NCBI RefSeq assembly: GCF_028368935.1
Contig: NZ_JAQNDK010000004.1
Coordinates: 124,001-188,000 of the forward strand
DNA length: 64,000 bases
From: Sorangium aterium
GTDB taxonomy: Bacteria; Myxococcota_A; Polyangia; Polyangiales; Polyangiaceae
Direction of reading: 5' to 3'
Below, one piece after another: positions 3,445 through 19,586 of the stretch. The position numbers were made by a program, and so were the translations under genes. Below the pieces are notes generated by a model. That model was not told the DNA's origin. It saw only the letters and a list, made by a program, of their open reading frames with translations, and did no database searches. The first letter of the stretch is position 1, and each line of letters opens with the position of its first letter.

Positions 3445-5241
3445 ATGAGCACCGTCCTCCACCGTCTGGAACAGTGGGCTAACGAATCTCCTGACGCGCC
3501 GGCCCAGCGCTTCAAATCTCAAGGCGAGTGGAAGACGCTGACCGCGCGCGAGTACCGTGACCGGGTCCACCACATCGCGCTGTTCCTCGAGTCCAAGGGC
3601 TTCGACGCGAGCCAGGTCGGCGCGATCCTCTCGTACAACTGCCCGCAGTGGGTCCACGTCGACCTGGCGGCGTTGCTCGTCGGGGGCAAGTCGGCGGGCC
3701 TCTACCCGAACTCCACGGCGAAAGACATCCAGTACATCCTGAGCCACACCGAGGCGACGCTGCTCTCGGTGCAAAACAAGGAGTACTTTCAGAAGATCTC
3801 CGGGGAGAAGGGCGAGTATTCCGCCCCTGACAGCGTGAAGTGGATCCTCGTCTTCGATGGCGACACATCGATCTCTCCCAAGGCGATCTCGTACGAACAG
3901 GCCCTGGCCGAGGGCCGCGCGCTCGCGGGGCAGCCGGGCGCGAAGACGTTCGCCGACTACCTCGCGAAGATCGACCCCAGGGCCGGCGCGTTCCTTATCT
4001 ACACCTCGGGTACGACGGGCAACCCCAAGGGGGCCATGCTGTCGCACGACAACCTGGCTTACACGGCCGACATGGCCGTGAAGTACTGGAACCTGCCGTT
4101 CGCGCGGGGCACGATGTTCTCGTTCCTCCCGCTCTGTCACATCGCCGAGAAGCTGCAGTGCGTCGGGGCCGGCCTTACCCAGCGCTACACCGTCAACTTC
4201 TGCTCGAAGTTCGAGAACGTCTCGAGCGAGCTCCCCGAGGTGCAGCCCACGCTGCTGCTCTGCGTGCCGCGGCTCTGGGAGAAGATGATGGAAGGCGTGA
4301 TGGCGAAGGTGCGCGGCGGCAAGGGCGCCAAGAAGAAGCTGGCCGAGTGGGCGCTCGCCGTGGGCGCCCGCGTGGCCCAGGCGAAGTACGCGCAGCGCGC
4401 GCCGAGCGCGCTCGACGCGTTGCAGCTCGCGCTCGCCGACAAGCTCGTGCTGGGCAAGGTGCGCGCGGCGCTCGGCCTGGGCAAGGCCGAGGTGCTCGCC
4501 TCGGGCGCGGCGGCGCTCGCGCCGCACATCTCGACGTGGTTCCGCGCGCTGGGCCTCGAGATCCTCGAGGACTTCGGCCAGACCGAGTCGACAGGCGTCA
4601 TCTGCATGACCGAGCCGGGCATCGAGGGCGCGGGCACCGTGGGCAAGCCCGTGCCGGGCGTCGAGTTCAAGCTGGCCGAGGACGGCGAGATCCTGACGCG
4701 CGGCCGGCACGTGTTCGTCGGCTATTACAAGGACAAGGCGGCGACGGAGGCCACGCTCGAGGACGGCTGGCTGCACACAGGCGATCTCGGCGAGTGGAAC
4801 GAGCGCGGGCAGCTCAAGATCCGGGGCCGCAAGAAGGAGATCCTCAAGACCTCGGGCGGCAAGATGATCGCGCCGCTCCCGATCGAGGAGAGGCTCAAGG
4901 CGGCGGAGATCATCAGCCAGGTGTGCATGGTGGGCGACGGCCGCAAGTACCTCTCGGCGCTGATCACGCTGACCGAGGGCAAGCTCGCCGAGCTGAAGGA
5001 GCGGGGCGCCCTGGGCGGCGACGCCGCGATCACGAGCCCCGAGGTGGTCGGCCAGGTGAAGGCGCACGTCGACGCCCTGAACGCGGAGCTCGCCAGCTTC
5101 GAGCAGATCAAGCGGTTCACGGTCCTCGGCCGCGAGTTCTCGGTGCAGGACGGCGAGATGACGCCGACGCTCAAGATGAAGCGCAACGTGATCGAGCAGC
5201 GCTTCCGCGGGACCATCGACGAGATGTATCCCGCCGAGTGA
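3445..5241 (+). CDS. fadD: Long-chain fatty acid--CoA ligase (AMP-forming)
   Basis: 598 residues, the normal length of the FadD15 / long-chain acyl-CoA synthetase class. The AMP-binding loop is YTSGTTGNPKG (residues 186-196). Further ANL-superfamily motifs are FGQTES, the hinge motif GWLHTGDLGEWNERG and the C-terminal RGRKKEILKTSGGK with the catalytic Lys region. The enzyme activates a fatty acid with ATP to acyl-AMP, then transfers it to CoA, feeding beta-oxidation or lipid synthesis on the cytoplasmic side of the membrane. AGGAGA (3435-3440) precedes ATG 3445. The next gene, 112 bp downstream on the same strand, is lipase-like, so joint action on lipids is possible but inferred only from proximity. 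Confidence 0.93.
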   Translation: MSTVLHRLEQWANESPDAPAQRFKSQGEWKTLTAREYRDRVHHIALFLESKGFDASQVGAILSYNCPQWVHVDLAALLVGGKSAGLYPNSTAKDIQYILSHTEATLLSVQNKEYFQKISGEKGEYSAPDSVKWILVFDGDTSISPKAISYEQALAEGRALAGQPGAKTFADYLAKIDPRAGAFLIYTSGTTGNPKGAMLSHDNLAYTADMAVKYWNLPFARGTMFSFLPLCHIAEKLQCVGAGLTQRYTVNFCSKFENVSSELPEVQPTLLLCVPRLWEKMMEGVMAKVRGGKGAKKKLAEWALAVGARVAQAKYAQRAPSALDALQLALADKLVLGKVRAALGLGKAEVLASGAAALAPHISTWFRALGLEILEDFGQTESTGVICMTEPGIEGAGTVGKPVPGVEFKLAEDGEILTRGRHVFVGYYKDKAATEATLEDGWLHTGDLGEWNERGQLKIRGRKKEILKTSGGKMIAPLPIEERLKAAEIISQVCMVGDGRKYLSALITLTEGKLAELKERGALGGDAAITSPEVVGQVKAHVDALNAELASFEQIKRFTVLGREFSVQDGEMTPTLKMKRNVIEQRFRGTIDEMYPAE

Positions 5242-5353
5242 GCGGGGCCGCGGGGCCCGGAGCGCTGGGGGGCGCCTGCTCGATACGAGATCGTCTGGCT
5301 GTGCTCGTCTCCGGAGCGGGTGAGCGCAGCTCGTCAAGTGGGAGGGAAAAGGC

Positions 5354-6907
5354 ATGAGTCAATCAAGAAGCCACCTCGTCCTCGTGCCCGGATTTGCGGG
5401 CTTCGATATCCTGGGCTCGGTCTCCTATTACTACGGCGTCACGGAGGTGCTCCGGAAGGCCGCCGCCGGGGCGTATCGGGCCCCGCTCTCGGTGCATTGC
5501 TTTGCGAACCTGCCCACGGCGAGCGTGGACACGCGCGCGCATGGGCTCCTTCACTGGCTCGCGGATCGCTTCAGGAAGGGGGTGTTCTACGGGGGCGTGG
5601 GCACCGACCAGCGGGACTGCCTCCATCTCGTCGGCCACTCGACGGGCGGTAGGGACATCAAGACGCTCATGCTCCTGCTCCTGGCCGCGACCGAGCAGGG
5701 CCGGTCGGTCTACGGCGTCCCGGCGCAGACCCTCCTCGAGAGCATCTGCTCGATCCAGTTCCTCTCGACGCCGCACCGCGGGACGAACCTCGCCCACGTC
5801 TTCCGCCGGTGGAGGCCTGGCGTCATGTCCACGGCCGGAGTCGCCCACGGTCTGCTCAGCATGACTGGCCAGAAGTACGCGAGCGTCACGGCCCGCCTCG
5901 CAAGGAGCGCCCTGCGGACGCTCGGCCAGTCGGACGGCATCGCCCGCGCCGCGCTCGACACGATCGATCGCTTCCACGCCGCGAAGCGCGACGGCCTCTC
6001 CATGGCCGAGGCGCGCAGCGAGTACTTCAACGTGCTCTGCTGGTTGCTGAACGTCGCGGAGGACACCGATGCCTTCGACGATCTCGATCCGCTGTCGTCC
6101 TCAGGCACGCCGCGGCGCGCCGGGGGCCACTCCCGACGTCGCCTGGCCGTGAGCAGCGTCGCCGCCTGGCGGCGCGAGCTCGCCGTCTGCGCCGAGAGCG
6201 CGAAGAAGACAGGGAAAGCCGGGCTGCTCGGGGCCGAGGTCGAGGAGGACCTGAGCGACTACTACAGGCAGAAGGGCATCGCGCTCCGGTCGATCGTCAC
6301 CAGGGCGAAGCGCGATCCCGGCGGGTCGTTCCTGGGCATCTTCAGCCTCCTTTACGGCATCACGGCCGACGTGATGGGGCGTCCGAAGGTGGTCGAGGCC
6401 CTCGGGCCCTCCTGCGCCGTCCCCTGGCTCGATGACCCGAGCCGGAGCGAGCGGCTCACGCCCGAGATGAACGACGGGATCGTCAACTCCGTATCGATGG
6501 TCTACCCGGACGCGGCGCATAGCATCCTTGTCGACGCCGACCACGCGGATGTCATGGGCCATTATCGGTTCATCGATCCGGAGGACGGCGACGGGGCCGA
6601 TCCGACCTACGGCGGGTACGACCTGCTCCAGTCCCGCTCCGGCTTCGATCAGAGCCAGTTCGAGAAGCTCTGGAACAGCATCGGGGAGTTCGCGATGGCG
6701 AGCGACAGGTGCACGACCGCTTCGCGCCGCAGGCCGGCTGTCGTACCTGCGGAGGCGCCGGCGGTGTCCCCGGCCTCGGCCTCGGCGGCGTCCCCGGCCT
6801 CGGCGGCGGCGGCGGCGCCGGCCTCGGCGGCGGCGGCGTCCCCGCCCTCGGCGCCGGCGGTGACCCATTTCCGCGCCGAGCCGTCGGACCCGGAGGGCGG
6901 CGCGTAG
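5354..6907 (+). CDS. Lipase-like alpha/beta hydrolase
   Basis: 517 residues with GGGAGGG (5340-5346) seven bases before ATG. The N-terminus LVLVPGFAGFDILG is a typical first strand plus oxyanion-loop region of lipases. LVGHSTGG, with Ser96, is the nucleophile elbow (GxSxG). The rest shows no clear family signature, and the acid and His of the triad are not obvious; AHSILVDADHADVMGHY near residue 400 may hold the His. The C-terminus (about 460-505) is Ala/Pro/Ser low-complexity sequence. No signal peptide is visible, so it is probably cytoplasmic. It follows the acyl-CoA ligase and ends 42 bp from a convergent gene; the GC-rich hairpin between them (about 6910-6930) could serve both as terminator. 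Confidence 0.65.
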   Translation: MSQSRSHLVLVPGFAGFDILGSVSYYYGVTEVLRKAAAGAYRAPLSVHCFANLPTASVDTRAHGLLHWLADRFRKGVFYGGVGTDQRDCLHLVGHSTGGRDIKTLMLLLLAATEQGRSVYGVPAQTLLESICSIQFLSTPHRGTNLAHVFRRWRPGVMSTAGVAHGLLSMTGQKYASVTARLARSALRTLGQSDGIARAALDTIDRFHAAKRDGLSMAEARSEYFNVLCWLLNVAEDTDAFDDLDPLSSSGTPRRAGGHSRRRLAVSSVAAWRRELAVCAESAKKTGKAGLLGAEVEEDLSDYYRQKGIALRSIVTRAKRDPGGSFLGIFSLLYGITADVMGRPKVVEALGPSCAVPWLDDPSRSERLTPEMNDGIVNSVSMVYPDAAHSILVDADHADVMGHYRFIDPEDGDGADPTYGGYDLLQSRSGFDQSQFEKLWNSIGEFAMASDRCTTASRRRPAVVPAEAPAVSPASASAASPASAAAAAPASAAAASPPSAPAVTHFRAEPSDPEGGA

Positions 6908-13379: not shown

Positions 13380-14924
13380 CTAGAAACTCCACGCGACCTG
13401 CGCGACCAGCTGATCCATGTCGGGGCTCTTCTTTTTCAGGTAGGGCATCCATACATGCACGCCGACGAGCTTCAGGACGACGTTGTCCGTGGGGCGGATG
13501 TTCAAGCCGCCGACGGCAGCGGCCCCCTCAACCACGGGGCTGGACTTGCCGAGGCGGTCGTACTCGAGGCCGAACCAGGGCATGATGCCGTACCAGGGCA
13601 ACCGGTAGCCCGTTTGAAAGTAAGCGCCCCAGGTGCGGTTGTCGGGAGCCCACGTCCCCGGGATGATCCCAGCCGGCCGATAGTCGTCGTCGTAGCGTAC
13701 GTCATGCATGATGTACTCGGACTGGAACAGGAACTCGCCCCAGGTGTACTTGAGATCGGCGGCCAGGCCGAGCTCGTCGTACCTCGCGGTGACGGGGAAC
13801 TTGGTGACAAACGCGCCGTCCTCCAGCGCTGCGACCTGCGCGGCGTCGGTGTAGCGGCCCTTGTAGCCCGATGTGCCGACCGTGACGGTGCCGTAGGGAG
13901 TGTCTTGCTGAAGCCAGAGACGCCAGCCAACGGCCTTGTTCTTGTCCAGATCCATGTAGCTGTCGACCGGGCCGCGGCCGTTTGAAACGGTGAGGTGGTA
14001 GCCCACCTGTGTGTCGCTGATGCCATGGCTGCCATACGCTTCGATGCCGGTCTGTCGTTGCGGCAGCCACTCGGCGCCGATGATATAGGGTCGCGTGTTG
14101 CTCAGGATGACCGGTGACCCGTGGTCGACGTTCCAGATCCCATAGGGGGTGAGCCACTGTCCGGCCCGGATGTTGAAGAGCGGATGGGCTGCGTATTCGA
14201 GCCACGCGCGCTCGATGATCACCCCACCCACCTTCTTCGTCCTGGAAAAGTCGGTGTAGTCCGGAAAGGCGGCGCTGACGCGGGTGTTCTGGAACGTCGC
14301 CGGATCGAACATGACCGCCCCGTCGGGCAGGTAAGTGAAGCGGACCTCGATCAAGGAGCGGAACTTCTTGCCCAAATTCGAGTCGAGGTAGACGTTCAGA
14401 TTGCCGACGTAGAAGCTCGGATTCGGGCCCACGCCGGTCGAGGCGCCCGACGTCTTCGCGTCGCTGAGCAGCGTGGAGAACGTGAAATCAGCAAAGCCAT
14501 AGATGCTGATCTTGGTCGCTTCGTCGGTCAGGTCCTCCGCGATCGCCTCGGCGGCCGGCGCGTAAGCATCCGCTCCTCCGCCGGCCTTCGGGGCAGCGCT
14601 GGCGTCGACCGTGCCGGCAGCCCCTGTCCCTGGTTGAGGTGCCACGGCGCCCGGGGCCGGGCTGGCTGCCAGCGCAGGCGCGTTCGCTGCGCCCGGCTGC
14701 GCGCTCGTGCCGGGTTGAGCCGGAGAGGCTGGCTCCGAAGGTGGAGCCGCACCCGACGCGTCCGGCGCCGGAGCCGGTCCGGAGGGGGCTGCTGGACCAG
14801 CCGTCTCCGCAGGCGTCGGAGCTGCTTGAGCCGCCGCGAACGACGACCCGAGCAGCAGCGCGGAGGACATGGCCAAGGTAACGTGAATGGGCACGCCACG
14901 GAATGCAACGGATCGCGTTCTCAA
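13380..14924 (-). CDS. Outer-membrane porin-like beta-barrel protein
   Basis: 514 residues if it starts at TTG 14924. This start is preferred because GGGAG lies nine bases upstream, the TTG overlaps the TGA of the upstream gene (TTGA), and the resulting N-terminus MRTRSVAFRG followed by LAMSSALLLGSSFAAAQA is a good signal peptide. A later GTG (14894) or ATG would damage the signal sequence. Residues about 30-115 are Ala/Pro-rich linker. The rest alternates aromatic and polar residues in strands such as ISIYGFADFTFSTL and FNIRAGQWLTPYGIWN, and ends with Phe (VAQVAWSF), the usual outer-membrane barrel C-terminus. It is probably a porin, translationally coupled to both neighbours. Confidence 0.78.
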   Translation of the reverse strand: MRTRSVAFRGVPIHVTLAMSSALLLGSSFAAAQAAPTPAETAGPAAPSGPAPAPDASGAAPPSEPASPAQPGTSAQPGAANAPALAASPAPGAVAPQPGTGAAGTVDASAAPKAGGGADAYAPAAEAIAEDLTDEATKISIYGFADFTFSTLLSDAKTSGASTGVGPNPSFYVGNLNVYLDSNLGKKFRSLIEVRFTYLPDGAVMFDPATFQNTRVSAAFPDYTDFSRTKKVGGVIIERAWLEYAAHPLFNIRAGQWLTPYGIWNVDHGSPVILSNTRPYIIGAEWLPQRQTGIEAYGSHGISDTQVGYHLTVSNGRGPVDSYMDLDKNKAVGWRLWLQQDTPYGTVTVGTSGYKGRYTDAAQVAALEDGAFVTKFPVTARYDELGLAADLKYTWGEFLFQSEYIMHDVRYDDDYRPAGIIPGTWAPDNRTWGAYFQTGYRLPWYGIMPWFGLEYDRLGKSSPVVEGAAAVGGLNIRPTDNVVLKLVGVHVWMPYLKKKSPDMDQLVAQVAWSF

Positions 14925-15715
14925 TTGATGCAGCTCCCTTCCGCGACGCACTGGTACTGGGCAACACCATAGGCGGTAAAGTCGCAGCATACGGTGCCGG
15001 TGAAGCAGTTGTCCGGCGAGAGCGTGCAGCCTTGAACCTGGCACTTCTGCGTCACGGCGGTATTGCAGTACGTGGCCTCGGTCCCCGCACACTCCGCGTC
15101 GCTGGCGCAAGGTTTTCCCGCCCCGACGGGCGGTCGGCGACAGTAGGATGGGGTGACCGTGAGATCGCACATGTGTCCGCCGGCGCAGTCGGCGGAGCTC
15201 GTGCATCCTTGGCTGGTGCAGTAGCCAGCGGTCCCCGAGACGGCGTGGCAGTGATTGTACGTTGCGTCGGGACAAGGCGTCGTCGCTGTATCGCATGCTG
15301 CGTCCAGGCCGGCGGGGGTCGCCGTGCAGGGCGCCCCGGCGGACGCCCTGCTGAAGCCCGTCGCGCATTCGCATGCCCCTGTCGCTCCAGTCACTTCGTT
15401 CTCGCCACAGGCATCGCAGGGGGCCGCGGCGTCAGCGCGGCCATATCCGGCTTTGCAGACACAGCCATTGGCCCCGGCCTCCTCGTTTTCGAGGCAGCGC
15501 ACGCAGCCCTTCTTCGTCGCGGCATAGCCCTCGGCGCAGACGCAGAGCGCCGAGTATTCGGAGTTGGCCTTCAGGGTCTGGCCGGGCCCACACGGCTGAT
15601 CACTGTCGTAGACGCAGCCAATGATCGGGAAAGTGACGGCAGTTGCCATCAGGAAGACTCGGCCCCATCGCCGTGACGCCGACGCTGCAGATTCATGTGG
15701 CAGTCTCGCGCACAT
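14921..15715 (-). CDS. Cys-rich secreted lipoprotein
   Basis: 264 residues from ATG 15715, which has AAGGAA ten bases upstream; the frame extends to 15784 without support. The signal peptide ends in lipobox PIIGC (Cys34). The mature protein has about 35 Cys in EGF- or TNFR-like spacing: C-x-C-AEGYAATKKGC, C-x-C-KAGYGRADAAAPCDAC, then CTSSADCAGGHMC and CASDAECAG blocks like those of many myxobacterial surface proteins. It is first in a three-gene operon with a porin and a small binding protein. The upstream spacer (15716-16193) has a perfect 12-bp palindrome that could be an operator. Predicted to be surface-anchored; function unknown. Confidence 0.75.
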   Translation of the reverse strand: MCARLPHESAASASRRWGRVFLMATAVTFPIIGCVYDSDQPCGPGQTLKANSEYSALCVCAEGYAATKKGCVRCLENEEAGANGCVCKAGYGRADAAAPCDACGENEVTGATGACECATGFSRASAGAPCTATPAGLDAACDTATTPCPDATYNHCHAVSGTAGYCTSQGCTSSADCAGGHMCDLTVTPSYCRRPPVGAGKPCASDAECAGTEATYCNTAVTQKCQVQGCTLSPDNCFTGTVCCDFTAYGVAQYQCVAEGSCIN

Positions 15716-16193
15716 TGTGCTCGTTCCTTGTCGTTGGGTGAGTGGGGACACGGACCCGCTTGAGTCTGATCGCAGCACGCTCAAGTGGCGCTCATGGATT
15801 GTGCATGGCCGTGATGGCTCATGGATCCCCCGTCGAGCTCAGCCAACCGCAAATTTGCGTTAAAAGCAATGCTTTCTCGCCCCCCCCAATCGACGTTGGC
15901 TCCGCGGAGGCAAGGAATCCTGGCGGCGTGGTGTGACCAACAGATCTGTGTGAGTGTCACGCCTGCGATGTCGCTCCGAGGCTTCGCAGCGCCGCTCGAA
16001 GCGGCGGACCTTCCTCCGGATCGTGAGCTTTTGCCCCGCGCCCGTATCGGGGCACGCGCAGCGCCGTCACACCCTCGATTCCGGGCGGGAGCTCGGGCCC
16101 GCTCTGAGCCGTGCCCGGCGCATCGCCGGCGCCGCGCCGCTCGGCCCCGCAGGCTGTGGAGTGAAGGCGGCAGGCCCTCCGGGGGCGGGGGCC
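15716..16193. promoter_or_regulatory. 478-bp spacer with AT-rich island and 12-bp palindrome
   Basis: No convincing gene is present in this stretch. Between about 15845 and 15905 the base composition drops to AT-rich. The perfect palindrome CGCAAATTTGCG sits at 15848-15859, about 135 bp before the start of the lipoprotein-porin operon, which reads leftward. A second weak inverted pair, CTTGAG/CTCAAG (15759-15785), lies nearer the gene. The palindrome is a plausible operator or promoter-proximal element. I could not place a clear -35/-10 pair. Confidence 0.35.
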
Positions 16194-17039
16194 TCAGGCT
16201 GCGCCCTCGAAGCCGGGCAGGGGATCGTAGTCCTGATCGGGGTCGTCCTCCTCGCCGGGCTCGGCGCAGACCGGCTCGTCGCCGTCCTCTCCCGTGCTGC
16301 CGGTGTCGTCGAGCAGCCCATCGAACGGTCCGGGGAGCGGCTCGTCCTCGTCCGCCTCGAGCAGCGCGTCCATGCCCTCCACCTCGCCGGTCTCCAGGTA
16401 ACGCTCCCACGCGTCCGGGTGATCCCGGGCGCAGAGCGCCGAGAGCGCGGCGACGCCCAGGCGCACGATCGGCTTGCCATCCGTGCTGCTGCGGGGCCGC
16501 GCCCTCAGATCGCGCGGGGCGTACACCGTGAGCTCCAGGGGCGCCGCGTCCGCCACGTGGTAGTGGACGTACTCCCGGAGCTCTCCGCCCTTCTGGAGGG
16601 TCACGCGCTCGCGGTCGAACGTCCAGCCGAGCGCCCGCACGTGCCGCTCCAGCGCCTCCTCGTCGGCGGGGAACACGTGCAGATCGACGTCGCTGCCACG
16701 GCGGATATGGCCAGTGGAGACCGAGCCGATGAGCCGCGGCGAGAACGGCGCGAGCGCGCGCATGGCCTCCAGCGCCACGATGCGCAGCGCGAAGAGCCGG
16801 CGCGTCCGCTGGCTCCCCTCGGCGCGCTCGGCGAAGAGGAGCAGCGCCTCGCGGATCTCGCCGTTGGAGGGCAGGTCCGCGGGCCGGTAGCGCGCCCGCC
16901 GCCCCTCCACCGCGCCGAGGATCCGCTTCGCGGCCATGCGCTTCGCGGTGAAGTACTGGTCCACGCCCTCCTCGTACATGAGGCGCGCGGCCTCCGCGGC
17001 GATGCGGGCTCGCAGCCCGCCGAAGCGCTCGGCGCTCAT
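16194..17039 (-). CDS. Nucleotidyltransferase-fold protein
   Basis: 281 residues. The central motif LIGSVSTGHIRRGSDVDLHV is the polymerase-beta-type nucleotidyltransferase signature: GS at 105-106 and Asp117-x-Asp119 for metal. A conserved N-terminal helix reads RLMYEEGVDQYFTAKRMAAK. The C-terminal 50 residues are very acidic. Such folds move nucleotides to RNA, protein or small molecules. The gene overlaps the preceding HTH gene by ATGA, and that gene overlaps an HD-hydrolase gene, so the three are surely co-translated. Nucleotidyltransferase plus HD pairs occur in RNA-end and nucleotide-second-messenger systems; the target here is unknown. Confidence 0.75.
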   Translation of the reverse strand: MSAERFGGLRARIAAEAARLMYEEGVDQYFTAKRMAAKRILGAVEGRRARYRPADLPSNGEIREALLLFAERAEGSQRTRRLFALRIVALEAMRALAPFSPRLIGSVSTGHIRRGSDVDLHVFPADEEALERHVRALGWTFDRERVTLQKGGELREYVHYHVADAAPLELTVYAPRDLRARPRSSTDGKPIVRLGVAALSALCARDHPDAWERYLETGEVEGMDALLEADEDEPLPGPFDGLLDDTGSTGEDGDEPVCAEPGEEDDPDQDYDPLPGFEGAA

Positions 17040-17434
17040 CTCGCCACCCGCGCCGCGCGCGTCGCCGGCGCCGCCGCCGCGGCGACCGCCGGCTCGAGGG
17101 CCTGCCGCAGCCGGAGCATCGCGCCGCCGACCACCCGGCCGCCCCGCGGCGCCCCGAACAGGCGCTTCTGCACGACCTGCTGCGCCACGCCGAGGCGGCG
17201 CGCGATCTCGCCCTGCGACAGGCCGTCGAAGAAATAGGCCTCGACGACCTCCCGCTGCTTCGCCGTCAGCGCGGTCTCGACCGCGTCCCGCACCGCGGCG
17301 CAGAGCCGCGCTCGCCCGGGCGGCTCGGCCTCGCCGCCCCAGAGCCGGCGATCGTCGCCCCAGCGGTCGACGTCGTCGCAGAGGACCTCACGGCGGATCT
17401 TGCGCTCAGGCGAGCGGCTCCTTTCGCAGGTCAT
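17036..17434 (-). CDS. Sigma-70 region 4-like HTH protein
   Basis: 132 residues. The middle (about residues 55-95) reads LTAKQREVVEAYFFDGLSQG and continues EIARRLGVAQQVVQKR. This is a sigma-70 region 4 type helix-turn-helix, but region 2 is missing and an unusual FGAPRGGRVVGGAMLRLRQAL tail follows the recognition helix. It is therefore a DNA- (or possibly RNA-) binding adaptor, not a full sigma factor. It starts inside the HD gene (29-bp overlap) and ends in the ATGA start of the nucleotidyltransferase gene. The start is the only ATG in frame before the HTH. It could autoregulate the cluster. Confidence 0.7.
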   Translation of the reverse strand: MTCERSRSPERKIRREVLCDDVDRWGDDRRLWGGEAEPPGRARLCAAVRDAVETALTAKQREVVEAYFFDGLSQGEIARRLGVAQQVVQKRLFGAPRGGRVVGGAMLRLRQALEPAVAAAAAPATRAARVAR

Positions 17435-17903
17435 CGGAGGGGGCGGGCTCGCCGCCGATCGACAGGAGGGTCCAGTCTGCGCCGTCGAGCAGGAGCTCCA
17501 CGGCGGCCTCGGGGCGGAGCACGGTCGCCTCGGGCGAGCGGCCGCCGACGTCCCAGCGGCGGAGCCGCGCGAGGTCCACGAGCGCCTTCGTGCGCCGCAG
17601 GCGCCGCCTGGTCGCGCCGGGCGCGCGCAACAGGTGGAGGTGGTGCCGCACGAGCCAGACCACCCGCGGGCACACGAGCTCCGCGAGCACGTCGGCCCCC
17701 TCCTCGGCGTGATCGGCGCAGGCGAACGCCTTGCCGACGTCGTGGAGCAGGGCCGCGGCCCAGAGCGAGCGATCCGCGGTCTCGCGGCGGGCCAGGTCGA
17801 ATACCTGCAGGGAATGGAAGAGCGCGTCGCCCTCGGGGTGCCAGCGCGGATCCTGCGGCACGCGGTCGAGGGCGAGGAGGAGATCGAGGAGGTCCTGGTG
17901 CAT
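17406..17903 (-). CDS. HD-domain phosphohydrolase
   Basis: 165 residues. HSLQVFDLA (His30) and LLHDVGK (His54-Asp55), followed by Asp/His positions in CADHAEEGADVL and VRHHLHL, give the metal-binding pattern of HD hydrolases. The family hydrolyses nucleotides, cyclic dinucleotides or RNA 2',3'-cyclic ends. It is first in a minus-strand trio whose next gene, the sigma-4-like HTH, starts 29 bp before this stop codon. The HD and nucleotidyltransferase domains, one fused chain in bacterial CCA-adding enzymes, are on separate genes here with a DNA-binding protein between them. Confidence 0.8.
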   Translation of the reverse strand: MHQDLLDLLLALDRVPQDPRWHPEGDALFHSLQVFDLARRETADRSLWAAALLHDVGKAFACADHAEEGADVLAELVCPRVVWLVRHHLHLLRAPGATRRRLRRTKALVDLARLRRWDVGGRSPEATVLRPEAAVELLLDGADWTLLSIGGEPAPSDDLRKEPLA

Positions 17904-18039
17904 CGACGGGAGGGCGGTCAGGCCGCCCGCGGGCTGCGGGCGAGCGGTGCCCCTTCACCCTGGGGCGCGGTCACACCCACCGGGAGGCCGCGCTCGCCGG
18001 GCGAGCCGAAGCATAGCGCGGGCGCGCCTGCGCCAGGCG

Positions 18040-19230
18040 TCAGGGAGTGAACAGGGTGGCCGATCGCTTCTTCGGCGCGGTCGGCGGGTGCGCGACCGTC
18101 TCCGCGGTCTGACGTGCGCCTGCGGCCTCCAGGCGGACCAGCCTGAGCACGGTGCCCCCGACGATGATCTGGCCGTTTTGCGGGAGCAAGGCGCTCGTGA
18201 TGCGCTGATCGTCGATCTTGGTCCCGTGCGTGCTTCCCTGGTCGATCACGCGCACCTCATCCGCTCCGACGACGATCGTCGCGTGCTTTCGCGACACCTT
18301 CGGATCATCGAGGCGGATGAAGCAATCGGGCTCTCGCCCCACCCTGAACTCTCCAGGGTGCAGCACGAACCGCCGACCTTCGAGGGGCCCGTTGCACACG
18401 AAGAGCTCGTAGGTGATCGCGGCGTTCCCGCCCGACGCCGGGATCGTGGGCCGGAGCGGGGCCTTCGCGATGCGCAGCCGCCCTTCGTACTTCTGCGTCC
18501 ACATCTGCGGGGTTTGCCGGCCTCCCTCGGCCTTGATGCTCGCTTGCACGTACTCGCAGAGCTCGTGGACATCGACGTATCCGTCTCGGTCCAGATCGGC
18601 TGTGCCGGTCGACAGGCCCTCGACGAGGTGGCGCGTGAAGATCGACTGCGAGGGCACCCCCACGGGCTGGTCGGCCTGCCATGCCAGCTGAACCGACGTC
18701 GTGGCGGAGATCACGACGCGACCCGAGCCGTCTCCCATGAACGTCCCGGCGATGTCGACGCTGTCCTGCTCGCTCTTGGCGGAGTTCTCGTACGCGCCGC
18801 TGTAGCAGCAGTCGAGGATCAGGACGATGCGCTTCGCGGGGCACTGATCGATCTGGCGGCTGATCCATGCCGCGTCGACCGAGGTCGCGCTGAAGAGCTC
18901 TTTCTCCGTGTCGCGCGCGGCGAGGTGGAGGTGACCCCAGTCGTCCTTCAGGCCATGACCGGAGTAGTAGAGGACGAGCAGATCCTCCGGATGGCGACGA
19001 TGGAAGAGCGCGCCGATGGCCTTCCGGACCTCGAGCTGGCTGCCATCGACGCAGAGCTGGACGCGGAAATCGCCGATGTCCGGGCTTTCCAGCGTGTCGG
19101 CGAGCTTCGATGCGTCGAGGGCGGGCGCCTGAAGCGAGCGCAACCTGCCGTCCGCATACATTCCGTTCGCGATGATGAGCGCGATGCGGTCCCGTCCACC
19201 GAGCAGTAGATCTCTGTCCAGGGCTGTCAT
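18040..19230 (-). CDS. Caspase-like protease with EF-hand and FHA domain
   Basis: 396 residues from ATG 19230; the frame is open further, but this ATG overlaps the stop of the upstream gene (ATGA). Residues 12-205 are a C14 caspase/metacaspase fold: catalytic His92 in YYSGHGLKD and Cys142 in LILDCCYSGAY. Residues 212-223 (DLDRDGYVDVHE) match a canonical EF-hand calcium loop at all six positions. Residues 290-365 are an FHA domain with GRE (298-300), SRKH (313-316) and STHGT (333-337), which would bind phosphothreonine. No signal peptide or membrane segment. I infer a cysteine protease gated by calcium and phospho-signals, coupled to an EACC1-like membrane partner. Confidence 0.88.
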   Translation of the reverse strand: MTALDRDLLLGGRDRIALIIANGMYADGRLRSLQAPALDASKLADTLESPDIGDFRVQLCVDGSQLEVRKAIGALFHRRHPEDLLVLYYSGHGLKDDWGHLHLAARDTEKELFSATSVDAAWISRQIDQCPAKRIVLILDCCYSGAYENSAKSEQDSVDIAGTFMGDGSGRVVISATTSVQLAWQADQPVGVPSQSIFTRHLVEGLSTGTADLDRDGYVDVHELCEYVQASIKAEGGRQTPQMWTQKYEGRLRIAKAPLRPTIPASGGNAAITYELFVCNGPLEGRRFVLHPGEFRVGREPDCFIRLDDPKVSRKHATIVVGADEVRVIDQGSTHGTKIDDQRITSALLPQNGQIIVGGTVLRLVRLEAAGARQTAETVAHPPTAPKKRSATLFTP

Positions 19231-19586
19231 TTGATTGCGCTGATGCGGCGCGCGAGGTCGAGCACTTCCTTCTCCCCGAGCGGCTTGTCCGAGGTGAACT
19301 CGACCTCCAGACCGTTCTTCCCCCGGATGCGAATGCGGCGCTTCGGCGCGCGGACGACCCACTCATTGACGAGCTGAATCACCTGAGGAAGCACCGCGGG
19401 GAGCGCGGCGACCGCGATCGCGCCGACGGTGAAGGCGTCTCCCTTCGCGTTCTTCGGGAGGCGCCCTTCGACGACGCGGGCCGGGGTCGCGCCTGCGGTG
19501 CCGACGTCGCGCATCAAGCTCTCGAGCATCGCGTCCAGCTGGTCCGCCTCGACCTCGGCGTCGTGAAAATTGAATTGCATGTCCAT
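19227..19586 (-). CDS. EACC1-like small membrane partner of the caspase
   Basis: 119 residues; AGGAGG lies ten bases before ATG 19586. The N-terminal 45 residues are acidic and helical, a hydrophobic segment lies at about 52-77 (FTVGAIAVAALPAVLPQVIQ), and the C-terminal beta-rich tail reads RIRIRGKNGLEVEF then GEKEVLDLARRI. This layout matches what I know of effector-associated constant component 1 (EACC1), a small protein found beside caspase, trypsin and other effectors in bacterial conflict systems. It is coupled to the caspase gene by a four-base overlap. It probably tethers or senses at the membrane. The family assignment is from memory of its architecture, not from a profile search. Confidence 0.68.
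   Translation of the reverse strand: MDMQFNFHDAEVEADQLDAMLESLMRDVGTAGATPARVVEGRLPKNAKGDAFTVGAIAVAALPAVLPQVIQLVNEWVVRAPKRRIRIRGKNGLEVEFTSDKPLGEKEVLDLARRISAIK

Follow-up and report, generated by a model that had tools for sequence, protein, structure and literature searches.

In the window, the stretch of 64,000 nucleotides of Sorangium aterium DNA that we analyzed (from a genome of 13.5 Mb in seven contigs), three overlapping genes encode an HD-domain protein, a helix-turn-helix (HTH) protein, and a nucleotidyltransferase (NTase). The HD and NTase genes are paired in distantly related bacteria and are fused in planctomycetes. We are confident that their products act in one process, which probably consists of adding nucleotides to a common acceptor and removing phosphodiesters from it. 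The explanation that best fits the evidence, put forward tentatively, is a two-activity enzyme module whose most likely acceptor is an RNA 3′ end, with a lineage-specific DNA-binding protein as an add-on.

Table 1. Features of the trio and its upstream neighbors, in window coordinates.
Feature	Coordinates	Strand	Evidence
EACC1 (putative)	19227..19586	-	PF19953, 18.8 bits against a cut-off of 23.6, nearly the whole model aligned
Caspase-FHA protein	18040..19230	-	NF047832, 160 bits against 140; EACC1-associated caspase type
Leader/promoter region of the trio, conserved	17904..17994	-	Window aligned with three congeners
HD-domain phosphohydrolase/phosphodiesterase (predicted), 165 aa, first gene	17406..17903	-	PF01966, 36.4 bits; pLDDT 93.5; ligands conserved
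HD dyad H54-D55 of the di-metal site	17739..17744	-	Kept in 55/55 aligned relatives
Sigma-70 region-4-like HTH protein, 132 aa, accessory middle gene	17036..17434	-	Sigma70_r4_2, 36.9 bits; between HD and NTase in 20/25 family loci
Region-4 helix-turn-helix, residues 55-93 of the HTH protein	17156..17272	-	Pfam stretch
Polymerase-beta-type NTase, 281 aa, with N-terminal helical domain, last gene	16194..17039	-	Conserved family; AlphaFold pLDDT 85
NTase catalytic motif G105-S106...D117-x-D119	16683..16727	-	Invariant in the 58-row NTase alignment

Gene structure of the locus

The sequence-only reading had described three small genes that share their ends. The open reading frames and coordinates are as it gave them, and so are both overlaps (29 bp between HD and HTH; 4 bp, ATGA, between HTH and NTase). 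Among the aligned relatives, the lowest identity to the protein of the window is 42 per cent for the NTase, 44 per cent for the HD protein, and 51 per cent for the HTH protein, and the species-wide scan described below found near relatives of 88–92 per cent identity in named Sorangium cellulosum strains. Because relatives preserve all three frames at the protein level, we read them as true genes and not as chance open reading frames.

About 90 bp ahead of the HD start are conserved in an alignment of the window with three congeners, one of which has a 1-nt indel there. The indel argues against a coding role for this leader, which is a candidate operator. It has no match in Rfam, and its predicted RNA folding is ordinary (z from +0.3 to -1.7). 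A search for a consensus promoter found none. A single terminator was predicted, at chance level.

Conservation of the HD–NTase pair

We searched 108 genomes of the family, including that of the window itself. NTase matches were strong in 25 genomes and absent from 83, and because of these absences the trio looks dispensable. In the twenty-five strong loci, where start codons were chosen by script, HD adjoins NTase in all but one. The HTH gene lies between them in twenty, each time with the 4-bp HTH/NTase overlap. Four loci (L015, L016, L022, L023) have HD and lack HTH, and in three of these HD and NTase overlap directly by 4 bp; L025 has neither HD nor HTH. One further locus with a weak NTase match (L026) was not matched by the trio profiles.

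The species-wide scan returned fifty-seven loci, two of which (L082 and L083, with matches of 23–50 aa) are excluded from all counts, leaving fifty-five. The homologues are not scattered, the outcome that would have spoken against the sequence-only reading: HD lies beside NTase in 54 of the 55 (the exception is L078), in Myxococcota, Thiotrichaceae (Thiomargarita and Parabeggiatoa), and Phycisphaerales. A phylum-level search of 377 genomes found the NTase in twenty, with HD adjoining in every case; these loci are in part the same as those of the species-wide scan. We regard the pairing as ancient.

Fused genes were found in a sample of 294 genomes from the phylum to which the Phycisphaerales contig L080 belongs. 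The NTase had a match, in a few cases weak, in thirty-seven of them, and thirty loci were retrieved. In twenty-eight of these, NTase and HD are joined in a single open frame with the NTase first. No HD was found in the other two (L171 and L173), and their NTase motif is lost; three of the fused proteins (L169, L170, L172) also lack the catalytic DxD. Two fused relatives pass the PF01909 cut-off of 21 bits (24.7 for L150, 21.2 for L144). An ACT domain was absent from all four fused proteins scanned and from the HD and NTase of the window. That NTase and HD form one polypeptide in planctomycetes strongly indicates that both predicted activities serve one process and makes it very likely that they share the molecule on which they act. 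The sequence-only reading had treated HD and NTase as halves of a single functional pair, and this part of it is borne out by the adjacency kept across distant bacteria and by the planctomycete fusions. What the sequences themselves show is a conserved pairing, a fusion, and active sites that are intact in nearly all HD-linked members.

NTases without an HD partner differ in this respect. We surveyed 369 genomes of the class to which the gamma-type contig L061 (‘Gammaproteobacteria bacterium’) belongs and found an NTase homologue in 178, nearly all of them more distant. Seventy of these loci were inspected, namely the thirty best with about 1.5 kb of flanking sequence and forty on long-enough contigs with about 5 kb on each side. 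HD adjoins NTase in only two, L115 and L114, the latter being the genome on which the search was centred. The orphan NTases retain the N-terminal helical motif and a late PxSxxDGxPMxR motif, and the catalytic DxD is nearly always lost. Among 161 distinct NTases, a count that omits L001–L026 and L103–L112 (largely repeats of other loci) as well as identical matched sequences, DxD is kept in 87 of 90 that are linked to HD and absent from 69 of 71 that are not, most of the latter being orphans of the gammaproteobacterial class. The two that have DxD and no HD are L078 and L188. Five loci counted as lacking HD (L123, L125, L141, L173, L200) lie near contig ends, where an HD gene could be missed.

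A tree of 126 of the 161 rows places three changes in each trait (HD and DxD) and gives three independent pairs; because there are only these, a Fisher P-value for the association is not a valid probability. The correlation comes down to a single deep divergence with a handful of exceptions, and it is suggestive, not proof, of coupled loss. Between thirty-one and thirty-five of the forty orphan loci have a common neighborhood, with genes that we take, from their sequences and not from a database, to be a penicillin-binding-protein-like gene and pilM-, pilN-, and pilO-like genes.

The HD protein

The HD protein falls in the HD phosphohydrolase superfamily by its Pfam match, well over the PF01966 cut-off of 22 bits. 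According to an excerpt of one source (PMC8177086), phosphodiesterases of this superfamily carry H..HD..H..HH..D, phosphatases have an Arg that is typically placed three residues ahead of the first His, and PhnZ and TmpB have a YxxE gate; the same excerpt states that cofactor and substrate cannot be deduced from sequence alone. Our fifty-five aligned relatives have the phosphodiesterase motif. H30, H65, and H88 are present in all, as is the dyad, H87 in 54 (one has Arg), and D118 in 54 (one has a gap), so the loss of catalytic residues in relatives that would have spoken against the sequence-only reading is not seen. The Arg of nucleotidases and phosphatases is missing, position 27 being A in 50, V in 3, and T in 2. 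The YxxE gate is incomplete: E24 is found in all 55, and the Tyr position is Y in 36, W in 9, H in 7, and F in 3, with W in the window.

Several comparisons point to the HD domain of tRNA nucleotidyltransferases. The HD protein has V15, HPExD, H30, HDxGK, H65, H88, and DxxGR in common with E. coli Cca and gamma-type Cca, and hhalign aligned it to E. coli Cca with a probability of 94 (E = 1e-7). All 55 HD proteins match the Cca model PRK10885 at an E-value of 0.01 or better, with that of the window scoring 28.5 bits, below the whole-protein cut-off of 451. Two next-best HD loci from gamma-type genomes, L111 and L112, are Cca, with 57–60 per cent identity. The HD domain of the E. coli tRNA nucleotidyltransferase reportedly (Yakunin, 2004) has 2′,3′-cyclic phosphodiesterase, 2′-nucleotidase, and phosphatase activity.

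Other models and structures match as well. The Phn-HD model TIGR03276 matches all 55 HD proteins at an E-value of 0.01 or better, and GlnD HD models match 37 of the 55 (best E = 2.3e-9). A profile search found PhnZ at E = 6.6e-13 with all metal ligands aligned. The highest matches to the AlphaFold model are also oxygenases, PhnZ (VIA Z = 16.7, 2.4 Å over 141 residues, 28 per cent identity) and TmpB (Z = 15.4), followed lower down by MIOX (10.4), exopolyphosphatase (10.1), and a Cca-type tRNA enzyme (9.9). We class the protein as a predicted HD of the phosphodiesterase type and of the Cca kind; an oxygenase reaction is a minor alternative.

The NTase

Pfam gives the NTase of the window only sub-threshold matches (DUF4269, Polbeta, NTP_transf_2). 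NCBIfam has a single match to it, MntA at E = 0.1, and PHROGs has no matching family at an E-value of 0.01. The one paper found in a literature search for DUF4269 is off-topic by its title and abstract. The core is nonetheless intact (GSVSTG...SDVD...ELTV) and has the pattern of the Pol-beta superfamily, G[GS]...DxD...D/E. In addition to the invariant residues of Table 1, E169 is present in at least 90 per cent of the 58 rows. The AlphaFold model has a helical N-terminal domain, a Pol-beta core, a helical C-terminal part, and an acidic tail of low confidence.

The sequence-only reading had proposed that the predicted structure might tell whether the NTase resembles CCA-adding, MNT, or cyclic-nucleotide enzymes. 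The best Foldseek match is Cid1, a weak one at E = 4e-3, and the VIA scores of the core are weak and generic (Cid1 Z = 8.3 over 87 residues, PolX 7.5, an alarmone synthetase 7.5, CCA 7.3). Cid1, CCA, and PolX enzymes are among the best matches of the core, and drug-modifying NTases and alarmone synthetases are among the weak matches too. We detected no homology to the NTase head of Cca (hhalign probability 0.1 against E. coli Cca) and no match to PF01743, the PolyA_pol head. The PDB sequences closest to the NTase profile are minimal NTases and MntA, again weak (E = 0.006–0.06). The N-terminal domain has a mean net charge of +4 (range 0 to +7). R10 is invariant in it, and position 33 is K or R throughout; its basic character is compatible with RNA binding, no more.

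The HTH protein

The Sigma70_r4_2 match of the middle protein is above the cut-off of 25.7 bits. Only region-4 stretches match in it; Pfam found no region 2, the part that binds core RNA polymerase, which sets it apart from ECF and sigma-70 factors. Its C-terminal extension is conserved (GxxRxGxxVGGA..LR), and it is distinct from its next relatives in its own genome (E = 6e-57 against 1e-6).

In the species-wide scan the HTH gene lies between HD and NTase in thirty-three distinct loci. It is found only in loci of the myxobacterial type, not in all of these, and is absent from every contig of that scan titled Gammaproteobacteria, Thiotrichaceae, Thiomargarita, or Parabeggiatoa. Because the HD–NTase pair also occurs without it, we take the HTH protein to be accessory and, most simply, a regulator. 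As a member of the trio it is thus real and conserved, as the sequence-only reading had it, but restricted to one lineage and not part of every pair.

Neighboring genes

The putative EACC1 gene and the caspase-FHA gene lie upstream of the trio in the same direction, and the trio begins 136 bp downstream of them. EACC1 with a caspase is a two-gene conflict system, described as System 4 in an excerpt of PMC7159879. The sequence-only reading had noted that the trio sits directly beside this caspase pair. This is true of the window, but a link between the two is not supported. By tblastn at an E-value of 1e-3, neither this caspase nor EACC1 is among the matches listed beside the trio in the fifty-five other loci, thirty-one of which have more than 4.5 kb on both sides. 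A phmmer search of the caspase domain and EACC1 at E = 1 against locus open reading frames of at least 40 codons found one other caspase-like frame, a caspase-FGE-sulfatase protein in a Thiomargarita locus (L062), encoded on the other strand at a distance of about 3.4 kb from the pair.

Nor was co-occurrence of the two, a check proposed by the sequence-only reading, seen in the other family genomes. None of the 107 other family genomes has a full-length orthologue of the caspase, and twenty-four of those have the NTase. The best relative is a fragment of 43 per cent identity at a contig end, in a family genome (G081) that lacks the NTase, and the further caspase-FHA matches listed in family genomes are partial, most often covering the FHA part only. 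Homology of congener DNA upstream of the trio ends at about 18019, short of the caspase gene. We rejected the link after these searches (tblastn of 55 loci, phmmer, and the 108 genomes), the lone Thiomargarita case being too little to revive it. Most simply, the caspase is a separate, lineage-specific neighbor, and the EACC1–caspase system is independent of the trio.

Neighboring genes in the fifty-five loci were called by a rough script and clustered, and their names are partly our own reading. Among the matches listed, those that recur are protein-kinase-like (seven), response-regulator-like (five), and FGE-like (four), and no RNA-metabolism, receptor or effector, PhnY-like, or phosphonate gene recurs. 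The clustering also returned the trio itself, antisense artefacts, and Polyangium synteny. The trio has no match on PLSDB plasmids, and none of fifty-five pattern matches in IMG/VR was confirmed. Phage matches involve only the HD half and are mostly to genes annotated as tRNA nucleotidyltransferases; one query protein (P0001) had three weak phage matches of mixed annotation.

Possible functions of the pair

In the scheme that we infer, the NTase would use an NTP to place a nucleoside monophosphate on a hydroxyl acceptor. The HD protein, as a free-standing di-metal phosphohydrolase of the Cca type, would cleave phosphodiesters or a 2′,3′-cyclic phosphate on that acceptor, either healing the end prior to addition or undoing the addition. 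The acceptor would most likely be an RNA 3′ end, in repair or tailing, and in myxobacteria the sigma-4-like HTH protein would probably autoregulate the operon. We consider an RNA 3′ end plausible rather than probable as the acceptor, given the Cca-kind HD, the Cca-like NTase-HD order, and the basic N-terminal domain. The pair resembles E. coli-type Cca in the HD motifs (HPExD...H, HDxGK, H, H, DxxGR) and in the NTase-then-HD order of its fusions. It differs in that its NTase is not of the class II/PolyA_pol type, its HD has an extra His (HH), and it is missing from most family genomes searched. The source genome has separate matches to the PolyA_pol family, and for that reason the trio is not needed as a tRNA CCA enzyme. 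Counting against an RNA end is the fact that the best predicted HD fold is that of the oxygenase PhnZ, well above Cca-type structures. Further points against it are the lack of detectable homology, by hhalign, between the NTase and the Cca head, the lack of a recurrent RNA-metabolism neighbor in the fifty-five loci, and the three fused proteins without DxD. The weak fold matches of the NTase, drug-modifying NTases and alarmone synthetases among them, and the matches of the Phn-HD and GlnD models to the HD proteins count against it as well.

The main rival is reversible nucleotidylation of a protein in the manner of GlnD, with the NTase adding an NMP and the HD removing it; a possible target in myxobacteria is the HTH protein. 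We think this rather unlikely. GlnD also unites a Pol-beta NTase with an HD in one protein or unit; an excerpt of PMC4285133 places its NTase ahead of its HD and gives it UTase and UR activities, and the planctomycete fusions follow that order. The GlnD model matches to the HD proteins favor it too, but the proteins here are small, the fused ones scanned lack ACT, the NTase has its own N-terminal helical domain, and the peripheral motifs of the HD are Cca-like. Many pairs also lack the HTH protein, which can therefore be no general target. A bolder reading, which we rate as improbable, is an undescribed writer–eraser nucleotidylation system built of a new Pol-beta NTase family and a freed Cca-type HD, in which the myxobacterial HTH protein would be the transcription factor that is switched and the orphan gamma branch, having lost HD and catalysis, would be non-enzymatic, moored beside PBP1A/pilMNO. 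If true, such a system would consist of separate genes in myxobacteria and giant sulfur bacteria and of a single fused gene in planctomycetes.

The remaining explanations fare worse. We give little credence to a second-messenger or alarmone pair, in which the NTase would make a small nucleotide signal and the HD degrade it. A synthase with an HD hydrolase follows the logic of Rel/SpoT, and the weak VIA similarity between the NTase core and alarmone synthetases (Z of about 7) agrees with it, but the GS..DxD..E core is of the transferase type, PADLOC cyclase-type models match poorly (best for the NTase, E = 0.014), and no receptor or effector recurs nearby. It is very unlikely that the HD is a PhnZ-like di-iron oxygenase whose substrate the NTase activates or tags: the fold and profile matches to PhnZ and TmpB, all six metal ligands, and TIGR03276 speak for it, while the gate Tyr varies among relatives, the HH pair typical of phosphodiesterases is retained, and neither PhnY-like nor phosphonate genes recur among the neighbors. 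Similarly, a toxin–antitoxin system of the MNT type, with the NTase silencing a toxin, is highly unlikely. Such MNT-HEPN systems also place a Pol-beta NTase in a compact operon, and the PDB sequences nearest to our profile are of that kind, but here the partner is an intact HD enzyme, no protein of the trio has a HEPN match, and NTase and HD can be fused. The NTase also has extra domains and is about two to three times the length of those MNTs (98–150 aa), and the plasmid and viral searches gave nothing confirmed. Last, membership of the trio in a caspase-centered conflict system is suggested by the co-directional EACC1–caspase-FHA pair and the Thiomargarita protein, and is largely refuted by the searches of other loci and genomes and by the end of congener homology.

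Significance

To our knowledge, few bacterial systems unite a nucleotide-adding enzyme with its own phosphodiesterase, Cca and GlnD being the well-known cases. The HD–NTase pair is not described in the titles and abstracts of the open-licence literature that we searched. Its parts belong to known superfamilies; neither this NTase family nor its combination with a Cca-type HD, free or fused, turned up in that literature, and the pair is apparently unnamed. A third pair of this kind, patchy over several phyla and present as separate genes or as a fusion, makes a small, testable module, and the catalytically degenerate orphan branch provides a natural contrast for the role of the active pair. In bacteria whose genomes are large and complex, the module might lead to a modification of RNA ends or proteins that is new.

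Leader and neighbouring genes

The leader ahead of the trio of HD, sigma-region-4-like HTH and NTase genes is strongly conserved in an alignment of the window with three congeners and is possibly an operator. No Pfam match was found for the 664-aa ORF at E 1, and those of the Cys-rich ORF were sub-threshold only.

Features of the window
Feature	Position	Strand	Remark
664-aa ORF	13380-15374	-	porin-like by eye
Cys-rich ORF	14921-15784	-	EGF-like, secreted-looking; beside 664-aa ORF
Leader	17904-17994		ahead of trio
EACC1-like and caspase-FHA gene pair	18040-19586	-	published two-gene kind

NTase homologues and caspase genes

Catalytically degenerate orphan NTase homologues, without an adjoining HD gene, occur in the gammaproteobacterial-class loci L174-L213 (around 5000-5600). 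Their neighbourhood, with penicillin-binding-protein-like/pil-like genes, is conserved in 31-35 of the 40 loci, and by sequence they are candidate pseudoenzymes. Three planctomycete NTase-HD fusions (L169, L170, L172) retain HD and have lost the NTase active site. Elsewhere in the window's own genome, one 7956-codon open frame contains two PolyA_pol-family matches (G000:C7:31798-37848), an unusual setting for this family.

On a Thiomargarita contig, a caspase and FGE-sulfatase fusion protein (L062, 12-2078, minus strand) is encoded 3.4 kb from an HD-NTase pair. The 107 other family genomes searched held no full-length orthologue of the window's EACC1-like/caspase-FHA pair, which, as judged from sequence comparison, is lineage-specific.
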